From: Acarospora socialis
Lineage: Eukaryota > Ascomycota > Lecanoromycetes > Acarosporales > Acarosporaceae
Assembly: GCA_025617375.2 (NCBI GenBank)
Contig: JAMYGW020000005.1
Coordinates: 1,054,001-1,118,000 of the forward strand
Reading direction: 5' to 3'
Length of the DNA stretch: 64,000 nt
A program made the position numbers and the translations under genes. This document shows positions 4,760 to 35,246 of the stretch, in pieces; the first letter of the stretch is position 1; each line of letters opens with the position of its first letter. The notes under the pieces are model-generated. The model did not search any database, was not told the DNA's origin, and was given only the letters and a program-made list of their open reading frames with translations.

Positions 4760-5780
4760 GGTGAGTGGATGGTGGGTGGGCAGCCGCAATCGGCAATGCT
4801 GCAGTTACGCAGACGTGGGTGATAAGATAGGGTTTGAGAGGGTCGGAAGCTGCTGACGTAAGGTACCCTCCTACAGTCAAGCGCCTCACGATCTTGTTAT
4901 ACCTTCGTGCTACCTCAGGTATGACCATCGGCGGCACACCAGTTAAAGATCCATGTGATATCAAGAAGCTGCTTACTACATGTACGATGGTTTTCTAAGG
5001 GGAGTTTGTTGTGTAGTTTGCGTGGAGACAAGTCGAGTGGCTGAAACTTATGAACACACTCCGCATGGGCTTTCATCACTTCCCAGCCAGCTACTTACAT
5101 CTGTTTCGTGTTAGAGGACCAAGTAGGAGTCTTGATTCTCTATATCGTGTGCCCTTCTTTAACAGCATATATCTCTGACCTCTGGTTAGTTGGTGCTTGA
5201 CCAATTGACTCGTCGTCCTCGTCTGAGCCTTCTATGTCCAGAGTTTCTTTTGTGTAACGGTTGTGCCTGTTTCACACAGTCACTTAACGTTCTGGTTTAT
5301 CATAAGAGTCCCATCATCTGACCATGTCATACTATTGACTGTCGTCTTACGGCACTTGGGTCATCGCCAAGATGGTCCGTTCAATGTCTACATTCCTTAC
5401 TGCCACCACCGAGCCGGAAACGTAATTTCCATTCCCCGGCCTGCGCTCAGCTGTTTTCAGATATCGCACAATAATTTTCTTGATGGAAGCAGCTCGGTGG
5501 TCTCCTCGAGGCGTAATAGGGAAACACCACCGGAAACATTCGAAAGTCGTTCCTTTGTCTCTATTATCGTGCCCTAGCGTACAATGAGCGACTGATGGAT
5601 CGCCGCATTCGGCTCTCCTTCGAAGAGTAAGGAGCGGTCCGGATACTTCCAAGGAATAAAGAACTGACTCAACACCATTCGATCTCTCTTTCTTTAGCTA
5701 ACGTACTCCTCTCACACGCGGTACTAGCTTGCCGAGATCTACGTTTCTTCCACGGCGCTGGCAGAAGAGGCGGCGACGAA
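4760..5780. promoter_or_regulatory. Divergent intergenic region
   Basis: About 1 kb separates the starts of the divergent hydrolase and zinc-finger genes, so it should hold both promoters. Short open frames occur on both strands, but none shows a recognisable domain. I could not assign specific binding sites. Confidence 0.4.
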
Positions 5781-8700
5781 ATGTTACTCGCAATGAATCC
5801 CGGGAACGAGCAAGAAGGGTTTCCTCTCTATAAACCATTGGGGAGGCGCAAAAGCCATGATTCACAGAATTCGACCGCCAGTGCATCGAGACTAAAGAGA
5901 CTCATAAATGCGTTGAATCCATGGTCTTCGCAGTCACCAACTTCCACCCCTGCTCCAAGCGTGGGAGGTAACCGGCGTGTACGGAAGATCGGTCTCAAAC
6001 CACGATCCAAAGTCGCTCGGGATGCCGTCCAGAAACCTCGCCAACTTTACTATATGACCGAAATGGGCCGGCGCAGGCTCCCACGGAGAAGTTATCAGCT
6101 ACGTCCAACGGCAAAGATGATCCAAGATGCTCGCAGGGGCCATCTGACCAAGTTTCTCAGACAAGGCGATATCATTCGAGCCGACAGTTTTGGGGAAGAC
6201 ATGGTCAACCCCCGAACTGCCGAAATCTACCTTGACTACGACAACGATTTTGTGACCGATCACTTATCTGACGAGAGCGAAGACATGGATGACGAACTAA
6301 AAGACAAGTCAAACCTATACTATATTTCCGTGCACCAGGATGAGTTGCCAACCTATCATTTCTGGCAAAGGGAAACTGATCCGGATCCGCTCCGAGCCCG
6401 AAGACCGATCGACTGGGGCGCTGTTTTCGAAGAGCGTCTTCCAGCCGTTCTGGCTGAGGAGGAGCAAGAGGGACTACTGAATGGGGCTTCCTCTGGAGGT
6501 GTCAAGTCAAAACCTGCGAATAGAATGGTCGACAATGCGTGGCTGCCAGGAGGGAAGTATCATCGAGAGATAAATCCGAAACGCAGCGTTCGTCCCGCAC
6601 TGTCGAATCGGACAGCGAACAATGCTTCATCACAGCCTGGGTGGACTATTCAAGGATCTATCGCTGGCTTGGTCTGGAATTCAAGCAACAATGGAACCGC
6701 AGAGGGGTCGCGACAGTGCGGACCGCAACCGGGAGATCCTGAATGGGAAGCGGCCGAGGATGAATGGGAGGCCCGCCTTCGAGAAGCCAAAAGTTTGAAA
6801 GCCTTCTTAGCTCAATACAGACGGGATGATGGCGACAAGTATGCTGAGCTTACCGCGCCGCGAACTTCCCCAGTGCTTCGTCCTGTTCACGGAAATGACG
6901 CTGGAACTCAAAGACACAATGCAATATTGAAGACTGCCGTTCCAACGGTTGCCTTCAAGCTTACCCAACAGCAGTTCGGTCGTCCCGTCAGCCCTCTGCA
7001 AGGTAACGAGCCTCTGTGTAGGGGTGAAGATCCAAGCAACTGGAAGGTGGGGGAGAATCCATATGAGAATTCTTGGTTCGCTGGAGGCAGGCTTGTATAC
7101 CACAAGGATGAACCTCTTGAGTTTCTAGATTTCTACGACCGGCAGAGTTATGGGCAGCCTATGATTCGCTGTGAGTCTCTCGTCGTCCCGGTTAGGCTAA
7201 TTTCTAGTTTTGGCTCACAGCGATATAGTACGCAAGCCAATACCCGAAGAGTACATACACCGGGAGCCGCCTTATCGGACCGGAACTATAGACAATCTGG
7301 ATGTGGTGGGACTACTAAATGACGACCCATTGCCGCAAGCAGAGCCTTGTGTGGGCTTGAAGAATGCGTTTGCTGCATCTAAGCAGTCTCAGACCTCGGC
7401 ATCCGCAACATTACTTCAAGGTGATGCTGGTGGACTATACGTTCACGAAAGGTCTTATGAGTCATTCCTCGCAGTAGCTAGGAGACTGCTACCGAACTCT
7501 GTCGACAAAGGTGCAAGACTAGTTTTCTGGGTTGACATTCTGAAAGCCGACGCTGCTCAAGTGGAGCCAGTCAAGATTGATATGGTAGGGGGCCGAACGA
7601 CGTTTGAGGCGAGGATCATGCCACTGCTGGCAACACCAACCTGTGACTTCCGAATCCGCCACAGTGGTGATCCAAATTCACCTTTCAAAAGAAGTAAATA
7701 CACAGGCAGCAGCATCCGACTAAACCATGAGAGCATTGGCTATGCGTACGTCGCCGTTGAATGGATCGACGAACCTGCAGGACACGTCGACCTCAAATAC
7801 CCGAGCACCGTGATGACCGAAGCCATATCGTTCCTATTCCCCGACGCAAGCCGCAACGGCATGAGAGTCACGTTGGTGATACCGGATGAGGGTTCTCACG
7901 ATGTTGACTTTCGTAACGGTGCAGATGCAGCGGTCAAAGCACGGTTACAAGCCATACTTCGTGGCGCGACAGAGGCAAACAAAGCTAATGCGAGCCCTCT
8001 TGAGGTTCAGATCTATGAAGCCGCTTATCCGCCATTCGATGTGAGTGTTTACGTACCCTTCCGCAGTGCTGATACTGACTCATGAAGGTTTCTACTCCAA
8101 AACGTCCTAGCTCAGGTCCTGTGGTGAAACCTGCGCCCAGTGATCCTCCGACCGGAACTTCCGGACAAACTGGTCAGCCTCCTCAGCGTCCACCCGTAGC
8201 CCCCGTGGCTGGTCCAACACAGCCTCCTCGGCGTCCAACCGTAATTCGTCCAACCCAGCCTCCTCCGAATCCCACCGGGCCATCCGTACCTCCATACTCA
8301 CCCTCAAAAGTACTGCTGCCTAGACACGGAGTTAACGTGAATACGGTCACCTTGATTCGACCAGCTAGAGGGGGTGCTGCCGAGCTGACAGCACCATTCT
8401 CGGCGCAGAGATTCCTAGATCAAGTTCAGGAACTGTATCGGCCGTTGGGCCATGATTGGACTCTTCGAGTGTTCCCGACGGAAACAGCCTGGATCAACAA
8501 CCAGTACATTGAGGTCAAAGCGGACATTACTAGGGATCCGCAGGCTGCCCAAAGGTTTGTGGAAGCGTTCCAACACGGGCTCCAGCAAAATGGATTGGTC
8601 TACATCTACAAAGAGCTGGTAAGCTAGTACCCTACCTTGGTATGATAAGAACCTAACCTAATGGTCCTCGTGTAGCCGGGTCCAATCCGCATCAACCACG

Positions 8701-11013
8701 GCACAGGTGCAAGTCGAACTTCTGAACTCTGGGACCACAAATCCGATGCGACTGGTACGAATTTTGCCAGAGTCGCATCAATCTTAACACGCATGCAGCC
8801 AGAGAGGAACACCAGCGGGATCAGAATTAGGGTGCATAAGCATACCTTGGAGGGGGAAAACCTATACTGGAACAACTTTATGAGCGAAGACCAATTCCGC
8901 ACATATGTCTACTACAAGATTGATGATCCTGAAATCGACATTTATCCTACTAGTCTGGTAAATATGACCGCACGGAAAGCTTTGCGCTTGTGCTGACGAT
9001 GTGACAGGTGCCTGACGGACGTACTTTCGATGAGGTGCGTATAGACGCCGAGAAGCTACCGCTGAGGACACCCGAAGAACGTGCCCAAATCCAGAAGGAC
9101 CAAGAGGGTGTGTTCTACCTCGTGTCTCTAATCGTTCAAATCTCGCTGACATCTCCAACCAGAGAATGATGCTCGGTGGCTAAAGGAGAGCGAAGAGAGG
9201 TACAGAGAACATGATGCGAAGCTCGCTGCTCGACTAGGGCCCGAGTCAATCTACGGTAAAGATTCGGGCGAAATCAAGGTTCCAAAATATGGACCAAGCC
9301 TTGAACCAGAGATTCGGGGCGGGCTCGACTTGCCATCTACATACGGCCGCGTCCTCACTCTCTCCGAGATTGATCGGCTGCAGATCAACCAGCAGCGTGC
9401 CGAGAACGAGCTCCTGCAGCGGGAAGCGTCTTGCCGCATCTGTGATATCAAATTCCGGCCCGGCGTCTCAGACGTATGGTTCAGTAACAACTCTACGCTC
9501 GGGGTGATGCTAACTCTGTGCAGATTAAGGCTCACTATGTCAAACATAAAGAAGATCAAGTGCAGCGGTGTCCATTCTGCGAAAGGAATTGGACCACTTG
9601 GACGATTGAAGTATGAAGCATAGGATTTGTTCCCGATAGAGTGCATACGATACTGACTGACTCCTATCAGGAACGAACGAGCCACCTCCGCGACGCTCAT
9701 TTCACCGGAGGTGGCGTTGCTGAACGAGAGGTCTGTCCAGACTGCGGAATCGATGTCAGCGATGTTTCCGCTTTCCCGAGTTTACAGGTAAAGTATCTCC
9801 AACAACTTCTTCCCGTTCCATTGCTGACTAGAAGCAGGCCGTCATGAAACATGTGAAGAAGCATCATTCCAGTCCTCCAGCCCAACTCCCTGAAGTCATC
9901 TGTGATTATCCCAATTGCGGGTTTGACATGTCACACTTGAGCGATCAGGTAACTATCGGCTAAGCTTACACCGAAGACAACACTAACTTCTGTAGGGGCG
10001 CATTGACCACGCAAAAACCCATCCAAAGCGCAAGCCTGGTTCGGCTCCAGGTGGCGATGATGGCGGTGATGGCGGTGGTGGCGGAGATGGCGGTGATGGT
10101 GGCGGCGACAATGGCGGCGAAGGTGGCCAGGAAGGTGATCAGGAAGGTGGCCAAAGAGGTGGCCAGGACGGTGGCCAGGACGGTGGTGAGGAGGGTGGTG
10201 AGGAAGGTGGTCAGGAGGGTGGTCAGGAGGGTGGTCAGGAGGGTGGTGAGGGAGGTGGTGAGGAGGGTGGTAAGGAAGGTGGTGAGGGAGGTGGTGAGGA
10301 GGGTGGTAAGGAAGGTGGGGAGAAAGGTGGGGAGAAAGGTGGGGAGAAAGGTGGTCAAGCGCCTGGGAAAGGTAACGACCCGAATAAGCCAACAGGCGGC
10401 AAGGGCACTGGCAGGGGTAACAAAGGAACATCACGGTACGGACACTGGATGTACTGCCCGACTTGTGCCGTACGATATAGCTCCAAAGATCTTGAGGTAA
10501 GGAATCCACTTCAAGCGGGATTGTCAAGTACTGATACTTCTCCTGCCATAGTCGATGCGCAAACACGCAAAGATACACAACATCGAGCCAAAGGCGTTCA
10601 AGAGACTTACACCAAAAGAGGCCCAGGTCATCAGAGCCAGGTTCAAGAAGCATGGAGGAACCGGCAATGAACCCCAGCCAAAAGACGATAGCAATAAGGG
10701 GACTAATGGTAAGGGAAAAGCTGGCAACGGCAAGAATGACAACGGCAAACAGGGCGGTGGCACGCCAGTCACCGGTAAAGGTGGAAACGAGAAAACGGGA
10801 ACAGACAAGGGGACCCCAGGCCGCAAAAAGCGCACACGGTCCCAAGACGACGATGACGACGATGACGGCGATGAGGAGGACGAGCTCCTGAATCCTCCGC
10901 ATTTGCGCTCTCCGAAAAGAAAGCGAGCAAAGACAGCAGCAGGTGATGGTCAGCCGCAGAGGCAGTCGAAACGGCAGCGGCGTGCCCCTGTCCGGACCTC
11001 GACCAAGGCTTGA
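5781..11013 (+). CDS. Large five-finger C2H2-like zinc protein with Gly-rich tract
   Basis: Eleven exons join in phase: 5781-7170, 7229-8040, 8088-8618, 8676-8957, 9008-9107, 9163-9473, 9524-9610, 9671-9787, 9838-9948, 9996-10496 and 10552-11013. They give 1,567 residues. I do not recognise the N-terminal two thirds; it is basic at first, has two similar W-x-x-G-G-K/R stretches (NAWLPGGKYH and NSWFAGGRLVYH), and a proline-rich linker near residue 760. The C-terminal third has five C2H2-like fingers: CRIC..HYVKH, CPFC..HLRDAH, CPDC..HVKKH, CDYPNC..HAKTH and CPTC..HAKIH. A Gly/Glu/Gln tract lies between fingers 4 and 5. The tail is an acidic run followed by basic clusters (PKRKRAK, KRQRR) that look like nuclear signals. 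Every finger is cut by a phase-0 intron just before its His half. A nuclear nucleic-acid-binding role is an inference. ATG 5793 is an alternative start. Confidence 0.75.
10050..10357 (+). repeat. Coding minisatellite (Gly-Gly-x-Glu tract)
   Basis: The reading frame encodes roughly 100 residues of GGQE, GGEE, GGKE and GGEK units in the zinc-finger gene. At DNA level a 36-nt unit occurs twice without change (10242-10277 and 10278-10313), followed by three copies of a 12-nt unit GGTGGGGAGAAA (10314-10349). Such tracts usually vary in copy number between strains. Long open frames on the other strand here are by-products of this low complexity. Confidence 0.9.
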
Positions 11014-11327
11014 TTTTGATTTGGCTATGAGTTGAGACTGGGTTTGGTGTCTTTTGCTGATTTGGGAGTGGGTTGGCGTTGGCATATAATAACTATCTGA
11101 GTGAACGATAAGCGGAGTTATTTAGTTTTGAGTGCAGAGGAATAACGTCGAATAACTCTAGTACTTCATAATCCCAAGGCTGAATTGATTCCGAGATCCT
11201 CAAGCGCGCCTTAATAGCACCTTTCGCGTTGAAGGACTCTTTCACGAGAGCGGAATCTGCCGCCCTCCCTCAAAACCCTATGTATAGATGACACAGGCCC
11301 TAGACCAATCAGCTGGATCTCAATGTT
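11014..11327. promoter_or_regulatory. Intergenic, 3' end of zinc-finger gene and JIP5 promoter
   Basis: Both flanking genes are on the plus strand, so this 314 nt holds a terminator and the JIP5 promoter. I see no distinct motif. Confidence 0.4.
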
Positions 11328-32946: not shown

Positions 32947-33128
32947 GACGGGCAATGCGTGAACGAGTGTAACGGAACAGACTGGATGGAAGTTGCTGAA
33001 GCGAGGACGTGCTGGCAGAACATCGTGGGCAACTTTTCCACTGTTTATATAGTTGTTGTTGCGCTGGTTGAGATGAGGCTGCAACGCGCGGTGAGCATAA
33101 GTTACCTGGTACCTGAGGTAGATCATTA

Positions 33129-33173
33129 ACGCATTTCCCTGTTACTCGAGCAACCCCCCCTGTCGGGCCACCT
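33129..33173. repeat. Left terminal inverted repeat of the pogo element
   Basis: It begins ACGCATTTCCCTGTTA and ends CGGGCCACCT. It matches the reverse complement of the right arm at 36 of 45 positions without gaps. Confidence 0.85.
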
Positions 33174-33239
33174 CGCTGTCGCTTAATTTGGGATGTCGAA
33201 ACAGCTAGAATTATTGAAATATCCACACCACTAGACTAA

Positions 33240-34844
33240 TTACATGAAAACTGAATACTCCATGGCCATTTCCTTCCAAACCAACTTCGCAAATCCAACT
33301 TTACCCCTTAATGCATGATACCTAGCTGATTTAGTAGCCAATTCCTTCGCCCTATCCTCTTCTTCCTGCATCATGGCCCTACCCTCATTGACTGTAAGGA
33401 CTCGGGCACCGCCAGCAGCCTTTTGTGACTGCTTCTTCCGTCGCTGCTGCTGCTTCTCAAGGAGTTCTTGATTAGTCTGTCGTAAGACTGCTCTATCCGC
33501 CACAGCTGTTAGGGCTGTGTCCTTTAGGCCTAAGACATGTGAATGCAATGAAGGAGTCATACCAGCAAGAACCTCATCCACAAACTGGTTGATTCGGGTA
33601 GCTGTATGAGGTGTGACGGTGATGTTGACCTGAACTCCATTGGAGTTTGTAAAGGACGCAAAGGGAGGAGTTGTTGGCCGAGAAAGATTTGAAGTAACGA
33701 CAGAAGGATCATATGGAACAAGTCCAGCAGCTCTCCATGCACTAAGAACATTCCTAGTCGTGATAGCTGTTGACCTAGCCTTCTGGTAATAGTGCAGGAA
33801 GTCCACCTTACTGATGGTGACAGCACCATAACGGGAGTGCTCATGCACTAGTTTCTTGTAGGCCTTGGCCAATGGGCTGAAGACTCCAACATCCAGTGGC
33901 TGTAACAAATGGGTCGAATGAGGAGGAAGACACAAAGCAATGATGCTGTGGTCACAGCAGTACTGAATAAAGTCGCTAGAGACATGACTTTCATGGCCGT
34001 CCAGTATTAACAGTCGATGGGTTCCTCGAGTTCGAGCCCTAGTGTGTAGATCAAAGGTCTCTAGCCATTGAAGCCCTAGTTCATTGGTGGTCCAGCCGTT
34101 TTCACTGACTGATAGGACAGTCTTATCATCCTTAATAGGGTCTAGCCAGGCATGCTGTATGCTCTTGCCCTTGAAAATGAAGTAGGGGGAAAGGACATCG
34201 CCATTCGAACACACACACTCAATAAGGGATACCCAGTCCTGGTTACCAGCTTGAACACTGAAGGCTTGTCTTTCCGTGCGTCGTATTAGGACTTTGGAGC
34301 TGTCGGCGATGCCCATAGCAAATCCCTTTTCATCCATGTTGTATATATCTGACTCCAAGATACCATGCTGAATTCGAGTGAAGTTGTATAGATCAAACCA
34401 TTCCTGGATGGTTTTGAGGTTTCCAGCATCCTTTCGATCCTGATTGAGGTTTCGACTATATCGAGTCTTAAAGCCTGGATGTCGAGACAGAAAACCCAGA
34501 TACCAGTTGTGTCCTAGGGGTTTCCGATCACCCTTAGCCTCCATAAGCTGTCTGGCCATGGATTCCAGCTGTGCAATTTGTGGAGGCCACCCCCAGGCCA
34601 TCATAGTATCAATCCACCGAATCAGAGCATCCTCCTCATGCACTGACAGCCGCTGTTGGGTGATGTGGAAGGTCTTTGCTGATCGTCTTCCTTTCCATCG
34701 AGCTTGTAGGGTAGATCGAGGTAGGCCGTAGATTCGAGCGATTTCGCGAAGGGAGACTGCTGAATTACTATTCAAATCAGCTAAGGCTAGGGTATATTGG
34801 GTGTCAATGTCAGGAATTGACTTATTCAGTTCATCTGAAGTCAT
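33240..34844 (-). CDS. Pogo-type transposase (CENP-B HTH plus DDE)
   Basis: One exon, 534 residues from ATG 34844. A longer in-frame start at 34952 lies outside the inverted repeat and is rejected. The N-terminal psq/CENP-B-type helix-turn-helix is visible in SLREIARIYGLPRSTLQARWKG, followed by the second HTH (LSVHEEDALIRWIDTMMAWGWPP and GHNWYLGFLSRHP). The catalytic core shows three aspartates in the pogo DDD arrangement: IYNMDEKGF, LLILDGHESH and LLQPLDVGVF. It is about the usual length for Fot1/Pot2 transposases. All core motifs are intact, so activity is possible but not shown. Confidence 0.9.
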   Translation of the reverse strand: MTSDELNKSIPDIDTQYTLALADLNSNSAVSLREIARIYGLPRSTLQARWKGRRSAKTFHITQQRLSVHEEDALIRWIDTMMAWGWPPQIAQLESMARQLMEAKGDRKPLGHNWYLGFLSRHPGFKTRYSRNLNQDRKDAGNLKTIQEWFDLYNFTRIQHGILESDIYNMDEKGFAMGIADSSKVLIRRTERQAFSVQAGNQDWVSLIECVCSNGDVLSPYFIFKGKSIQHAWLDPIKDDKTVLSVSENGWTTNELGLQWLETFDLHTRARTRGTHRLLILDGHESHVSSDFIQYCCDHSIIALCLPPHSTHLLQPLDVGVFSPLAKAYKKLVHEHSRYGAVTISKVDFLHYYQKARSTAITTRNVLSAWRAAGLVPYDPSVVTSNLSRPTTPPFASFTNSNGVQVNITVTPHTATRINQFVDEVLAGMTPSLHSHVLGLKDTALTAVADRAVLRQTNQELLEKQQQRRKKQSQKAAGGARVLTVNEGRAMMQEEEDRAKELATKSARYHALRGKVGFAKLVWKEMAMEYSVFM

Positions 34845-34892
34845 TGTGGATGTGTGACGACAGCAAGGTGAGTGGCAGTGTTTGCTGCGACA

Positions 34893-34937
34893 AGGTGGCC
34901 CGATTAGGCGAGTGGCTCGAATAACAGGGAAACTCGT
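34893..34937. repeat. Right terminal inverted repeat of the pogo element
   Basis: Read on the minus strand it begins ACGAGTTTCCCTGTTA and pairs with the left arm. It is flanked by TA. Confidence 0.85.
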
Positions 34938-35246
34938 TACCGGATTCGGCACACCGCGGTGCGGGCGGTGAAATCATACAGAGCTGGCCAATCAATCGAG
35001 ACGAGACATAACTCACTCATTGGAAAGATAGCAGGGACGAAACCTCTTGTTGTACACCATCTTTCTAAGACAGTAGGGTATGGTTGAAATACAGCTGGAC
35101 GAAAAAAGCACTGAACATTTTCAGCGAAAAGACCTAACCCCGCGGTACTTCGAAAAGAGATCTAGTCTAATTCTAGAGCCATGACGCTGCCGCCGAGAGG
35201 ATGGAACAGAGATCTATGTTCATGGATACATCAGTATTACTGTCGT
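34938..35246. other. Gap between transposon and CCP1 3' end
   Basis: This 309 nt holds the CCP1 3' flank. Nothing else is recognisable. Confidence 0.4.

Follow-up and report, generated by a model that had tools for sequence, protein, structure and literature searches.

How does a gene come to have each of its zinc fingers interrupted by an intron at a matching position, and does such an arrangement serve splicing today? The question is raised by a predicted gene on the plus strand of a 64,000-nucleotide (nt) stretch of Acarospora socialis DNA, hereafter the window (assembly GCA_025617375.2, contig JAMYGW020000005.1, positions 1,054,001 to 1,118,000 of the forward strand). Its predicted product contains five units resembling C2H2 zinc fingers, each split by an intron between its Cys pair and its His pair, and the alignment of these introns across the fingers is non-random. 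Our best reading, which we regard as probable, is that a 0-0 exon (one that starts and ends in phase 0) spanning two half-fingers was duplicated repeatedly in the distant past, and that the gene now encodes one constitutively spliced five-finger protein. We infer this origin from comparisons within the single gene and from a published precedent.

The finger introns, numbered 6 to 10 in the gene (Table 1), all have GT...AG ends, a branch-like site and phase 0. We compared each with other local introns (GT/GC..AG, 38-130 nt, frame kept open) using a simple in-house consensus score. At all five finger sites the intron proposed by the initial annotation was the top-scoring candidate; it was the sole candidate at 9611-9670 and 9949-9995, and at the other three sites the runner-up trailed by a mere 0.5 point. 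We also scanned both strands of the window for a Cys pair, an intron bearing a branch site and a His pair, within limits chosen after the fingers had been seen. The scan returned eight rows on the plus strand and none on the minus strand. All eight lie at the five fingers; three represent alternative splicing of finger 3, and two of these three use an out-of-frame Cys pair. Six shuffled copies of the sequence (mononucleotide, 200-nt blocks, one strand each) returned no rows. The initial annotation had described five fingers, each cut in phase 0 between the Cys and His pairs by the introns of Table 1, with exons 7-10 each carrying one His half and the next Cys half in a multiple of three nucleotides, and this description holds throughout. 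Its statement that all five fingers are cut at the same point holds for four of them, where four residues separate the cut from the first His; in finger 1 the number is three. Measured from the other side, the cut lies 10 residues after the second Cys in four of the five.

Table 1. The host gene and the parts of its split-finger array. Positions are those of the window; residues are counted from the second Cys (Cys2) and to the first His (His1) of each finger.
Feature	Positions	Strand	Description
Host gene	5781-11013	+	11 exons, 10 introns, 1574 amino acids; one open frame after splicing
Finger 1 Cys half	9432-9473	+	End of exon 6
Intron 6	9474-9523	+	Phase 0, 50 nt; cuts finger 1, 10 residues after Cys2 and 3 before His1
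Exon 7	9524-9610	+	87 nt, 0-0; finger 1 His half, 7-residue linker, finger 2 Cys half
Intron 7	9611-9670	+	Phase 0, 60 nt; cuts finger 2, 10 after Cys2 and 4 before His1
Exon 8	9671-9787	+	117 nt, 0-0; finger 2 His half, linker, finger 3 Cys half
Intron 8	9788-9837	+	Phase 0, 50 nt; cuts finger 3, 14 after Cys2 and 4 before His1
Exon 9	9838-9948	+	111 nt, 0-0; finger 3 His half, linker, finger 4 Cys half
Intron 9	9949-9995	+	Phase 0, 47 nt; cuts finger 4, 10 after Cys2 and 4 before His1
Exon 10	9996-10496	+	501 nt, 0-0; finger 4 His half, Gly/Glu-rich minisatellite linker, finger 5 Cys half
Intron 10	10497-10551	+	Phase 0, 55 nt; cuts finger 5, 10 after Cys2 and 4 before His1
Exon 11	10552-11013	+	Finger 5 His half, acidic stretch, basic C-terminal tail

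In classical C2H2 fingers, 12 residues separate the second Cys from the first His. Here the spacing is 13, 14, 18, 14 and 14 residues in fingers 1 to 5, so that none of the five has the classical distance; all five have a Cys pair 2-4 apart and a His pair 3-5 apart, as in the classical pattern (PROSITE PS00028). No Pfam model reached its gathering score with fingers 1-4 or with finger 5. The best C2H2 model was zf-C2H2_9 for fingers 1-4 (16.5 bits against a cut-off of 29) and zf-C2H2_3 for finger 5 (19.7 bits against 27), and PF00096 itself was not listed for the fingers up to an E value of 1. A sequence search of the PDB with fingers 1-4 gave six weak rows, the best being ZNF524 (E value 0.006); five are animal C2H2 proteins and the remaining one is LAP2 alpha. 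Because the units miss both the Pfam cut-offs and the standard spacing, we term them C2H2-like; they are not standard C2H2 fingers, and zinc binding by them is putative.

Where the cut falls in the folded finger depends on the numbering of the helix, in which the first His of a classical finger is position +7. We take a cut four residues before this His to lie between +2 and +3, and that of finger 1 to lie between +3 and +4. Both types of cut are thus within the recognition helix, between base-contacting positions of classical fingers, and not directly before the helix as first proposed. The start of the helix is itself uncertain, since the Cys-His spacing is 13-18 residues instead of 12.

The five cuts lie within 3 nt of one another relative to the first His. 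We calculated how often five introns placed at random in the finger-bearing coding sequence, with the spacer between fingers 4 and 5 excluded, would align this closely, and obtained P = 3.2e-7 by exact sum. Favouring insertion after AG by 5, 20 or 50 fold, with a lesser weight for sites after or before G, raised this value to 4.6e-7, 1.4e-6 and 3.3e-6, respectively. In a simulation, 0 of 400000 sets were as aligned as the observed one, in each of two versions (spacer excluded or kept). These P values are somewhat weakened because the feature was chosen after being seen.

The fingers retain some likeness to one another. With the Cys and His residues held in place and 500 shuffles per pair, fingers 3 and 4 (z score 4.5) and fingers 3 and 5 (3.7) scored higher than every shuffle; fingers 2 and 5 reached a nominal 0.042, and the other seven of the ten pairs lay above 0.05. 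Two of the ten pairs of finger introns had z scores above 2 (introns 6 and 8, 6 and 9), and intron 6 scored higher with introns 2 and 3, which lie outside the fingers (3.4 and 2.8). If the exons were copied, it was long ago, given how sparse the residual likeness of fingers and introns is.

Duplication of a 0-0 exon most likely accounts jointly for the matching cuts, the frame symmetry and the half-and-half content of the exons. Exons 7-10 start and end in phase 0 inside a finger, as expected of a split-finger array of the piccolo b kind that grew by exon duplication. The proposed copying unit would be an exon whose two boundaries each fall halfway through a finger, in neighbouring fingers. 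With phase 0 at both boundaries, each tandem copy would add one whole finger, leaving frame and fold undisturbed, and every finger would end up with an intron at the equivalent position. On this reading the copies are old and have since diverged. Present-day splicing is most likely constitutive, each intron being recognised and excised singly through intron definition, and gives a single five-finger protein that is probably nuclear.

Several observations weigh against this proposal. The coincidence that it explains was defined post hoc, which weakens it somewhat. The cut in finger 1 is one codon off relative to the His, and that in finger 3 falls four residues later relative to the Cys. Three of ten finger pairs reach the nominal 0.05 level and two do so after correction, fingers 1 and 2 are dissimilar (0.384), and the comparison of intron pairs revealed no likeness specific to the finger introns. 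The suggestion, already made in the initial annotation, that the array is a fossil of exon duplication is supported by the intron alignment, by the similarity of finger 3 to fingers 4 and 5 and by the exon logic of piccolo b (discussed below); the sequence support is partial, with clear likeness in two of the ten finger pairs, nominal likeness in one and none in seven.

The alternative that survives best is parallel intron gain, by which the fingers first lay in one exon and five introns entered later at the same helix site, through an insertion preference or an introner-like element. We consider it unlikely. It would fit the weak likeness of the finger units, eight of whose ten pairs fail correction, and introner-like elements have been described in fungi, to judge by the title of a reference. 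Chance alignment nevertheless has a probability of at most 3.3e-6 even when a 50-fold preference for sites after AG is granted. AG precedes the intron at only three of the five insertion sites, so that a shared target motif explains the alignment poorly, and the five sites have no motif in common. Finally, the finger introns are not specially alike, unlike recent introners.

Two further proposals would give the introns a present role. One is a switch in which the introns shut the protein off, a retained intron ending the frame early and perhaps triggering decay of the transcript; we give this little credence. Retention of any one of the ten introns would truncate the protein, to between 513 and 1478 of its 1574 residues, and among the alternative splicing events of fungi, intron retention is the most frequent (PMC3925392; PMC2397502). 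The finger introns, however, carry good consensus signals, and because the five introns outside the fingers behave just like the five within them, a retention switch would leave the matching cut sites unexplained.

The other is a regulated splice code, which the initial annotation had put forward as a working means to vary binding specificity. Exons 7-10 would be conditionally skipped, joining one finger's Cys half, with the initial residues of its helix, to the remainder of another finger's helix. Leaving out exon 7, 8, 9 or 10 keeps the frame, as had been stated and as our computation confirmed. Exons 3 and 4 are frame-neutral too, since phase 0 is shared by eight of the gene's ten introns; frame symmetry is therefore a property of the whole gene and not of the fingers alone. 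Skipping of finger exons alters finger number in Ikaros in animals (PMC12896614), and fungal exon skipping is documented for rtnA of the filamentous ascomycetes Aspergillus niger and Neurospora crassa, where it proceeds via a twin intron (PMC6616335). Against such a code, a survey of 42 eukaryotes found retained introns to be 37 times commoner than cassette exons in fungi and protists taken together, with a cassette fraction that averages 3 percent in this combined group and, on small counts, runs from 0 to ~0.2 in single fungi (PMC2397502). A later survey likewise describes exon skipping as comparatively low in fungi (PMC6142364), whose splicing is thought to be governed by intron definition (PMC3925392; PMC6616335). 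Skipping exon 7, 8, 9 or 10 would require removal of introns of 197, 227, 208 or 603 nt, respectively, unusually long for a gene whose native introns measure 37-60 nt, and the half-finger exons of piccolo b are mostly included (PMC3484663). On these grounds the splice code is unsupported, and we regard it as very doubtful.

A related idea, that the array is a finger-recombining cassette yielding hybrid specificities either through splicing in a single cell or through unequal crossing over among strains, seems to us a long shot. Because the cut lies within the recognition helix on the classical numbering, skipping or recombination would re-pair base-contacting residues of different fingers. Splicing variation, if found, would be unexpected, given how rarely fungi skip exons. 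Intron 8 closes (9829-9837) with three tandem acceptors in one frame, TAG AAG CAG, whose ends are at 9831, 9834 and 9837; use of alternative acceptors there would lengthen finger 3 by one or two residues beside the cut, and is easier to imagine than exon skipping.

We assign a very low probability to an error in the gene model that would make some of the five introns unreal and the fingers partly illusory: the model is drawn from the genomic sequence, every finger scores below its Pfam gathering threshold and the runner-up introns at three of the five sites are close behind, but five Cys-intron-His matches fall in one gene, both strands of the rest of the window gave none, as did six shuffled single strands, each intron is the best of its local candidates, and retention of any of introns 6-10 would truncate the protein.

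Outside the cut sites, the linkers between successive fingers measure 7, 11, 12 and ~144 residues (counted by hand). The longest, encoded by exon 10 and joining fingers 4 and 5, contains an in-frame 12-nt minisatellite of ~20 copies (10119-10355). A 9-nt array lies a little upstream of it at 10052-10099, and the length of this linker may differ between strains. The basic C-terminal tail looks like a nuclear localisation signal, which suggests a nuclear protein. Elsewhere in the host gene, the start codon and the first intron (7171-7207, 37 nt) are less certain, and no Pfam model reached its gathering score in a scan of residues 1-1270.

A second exon-wise repeat set, in exons 2-4, was considered and is not claimed, the sequence tests being null. 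In local alignments of the proteins of exons 1-6, not one of the 15 pairs exceeded the 95th percentile of shuffles. Among the ends of exons 2, 3 and 4, no pair of three reached 0.05, and shorter stretches again gave none of three (best 0.08). AlphaFold models for parts of exons 2 and 3, of low confidence and built from single sequences (mean predicted local distance difference test scores of 39 and 57), have a common order of strand-helix-strand-strand-helix-strand in the exon ends (window positions 7423-8957), each stopping just before a phase-0 intron. By eye, exon 4 is similar to these ends.

The window contains 41 stop-to-stop frames of at least 200 amino acids, 20 of which we scanned with Pfam. 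Among these 20 we found PRP39-like, Mug190-like, PITH, ABC transporter and DDE_1/Tc5 transposase matches, together with a WDR55 match below its cut-off. Taken with the short introns, these matches would fit a filamentous ascomycete. A long frame on the minus strand at 37887-39668 matches DUF7892 just over the cut-off (31.1 bits against 27). The transposase frame, long, uninterrupted and on the minus strand, lies inside a DNA transposon at 33127-34939, with 47-nt terminal inverted repeats that are 81 percent complementary and TA at both ends; we take this element to be of the Fot1/pogo kind.

Wider searches returned no confirmed relatives. Fingers 1-4 gave four pattern matches in viral contigs, none confirmed, and the exon-1 protein, rather than the fingers, gave 13 in bacterial and archaeal genomes, again none confirmed; Rfam had no match in 5500-11300. 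A search of the open-licence literature produced no fungal example of split fingers or matching introns, which is weak evidence of absence. Outside fungi, Xenopus TFIIIA and Drosophila CF2 may be further cases, on which the present reading does not draw.

Among known systems, the most similar is piccolo b of teleosts, in which a frame-0 central exon that links the last part of one zinc finger to the first part of the following one has been amplified 8-16 times (PMC3484663). As in the array described here, the fingers are cut by frame-0 introns and the repeated exons consist of two half-fingers. In piccolo b the frame-0 intron is conserved, and finger number changes by duplication and loss of single exons (PMC3484663). 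Every copy tested is spliced into messenger RNA; a minor product lacks one exon, and other tissues show some skipping (PMC3484663). Unlike our predicted protein, piccolo b is a vertebrate synaptic protein whose fingers have four CxxC motifs instead of Cys2His2; its repeats are still recognisably alike and share a central motif, and its exons are larger, at 702-1350 base pairs in zebrafish compared with 87-117 nt, and one of 501 nt, here (PMC3484663).

Other comparisons capture single aspects of the array. Ikaros (IKZF1) also has finger-carrying exons whose skipping changes finger number; that skipping is documented in human cells, whereas the present array is known from its DNA (PMC12896614). 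Plant IDD genes have one or two cut fingers per gene, such as ZF2 in maize ID1 and sorghum SbID, and differ from our array in having no matching-site cut in every finger (PMC1586020). Animal poly-C2H2 genes resemble it in that their tandem fingers grew by duplication, but 78 percent of their long arrays in human, and 11 percent in zebrafish, lie in one exon, which their authors took, allowing for intron loss, as evidence against exon shuffling there (PMC1553488). In the view of the initial annotation, the fingers of most fungal C2H2 genes would lie in one exon. Among 61 C2H2 genes of the fungus Ascochyta rabiei, 13 are intronless and 13 have one intron, phase 1 being the most frequent phase in this last set (PMC5470089). 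Should the exon-duplication origin be correct, the introns at corresponding positions in related fungi could give the order and age of the finger additions, and the A. socialis gene would be a Cys2His2-like, probably fungal, counterpart of piccolo b, in which duplication units and protein domains are offset from each other and yet whole domains always result.
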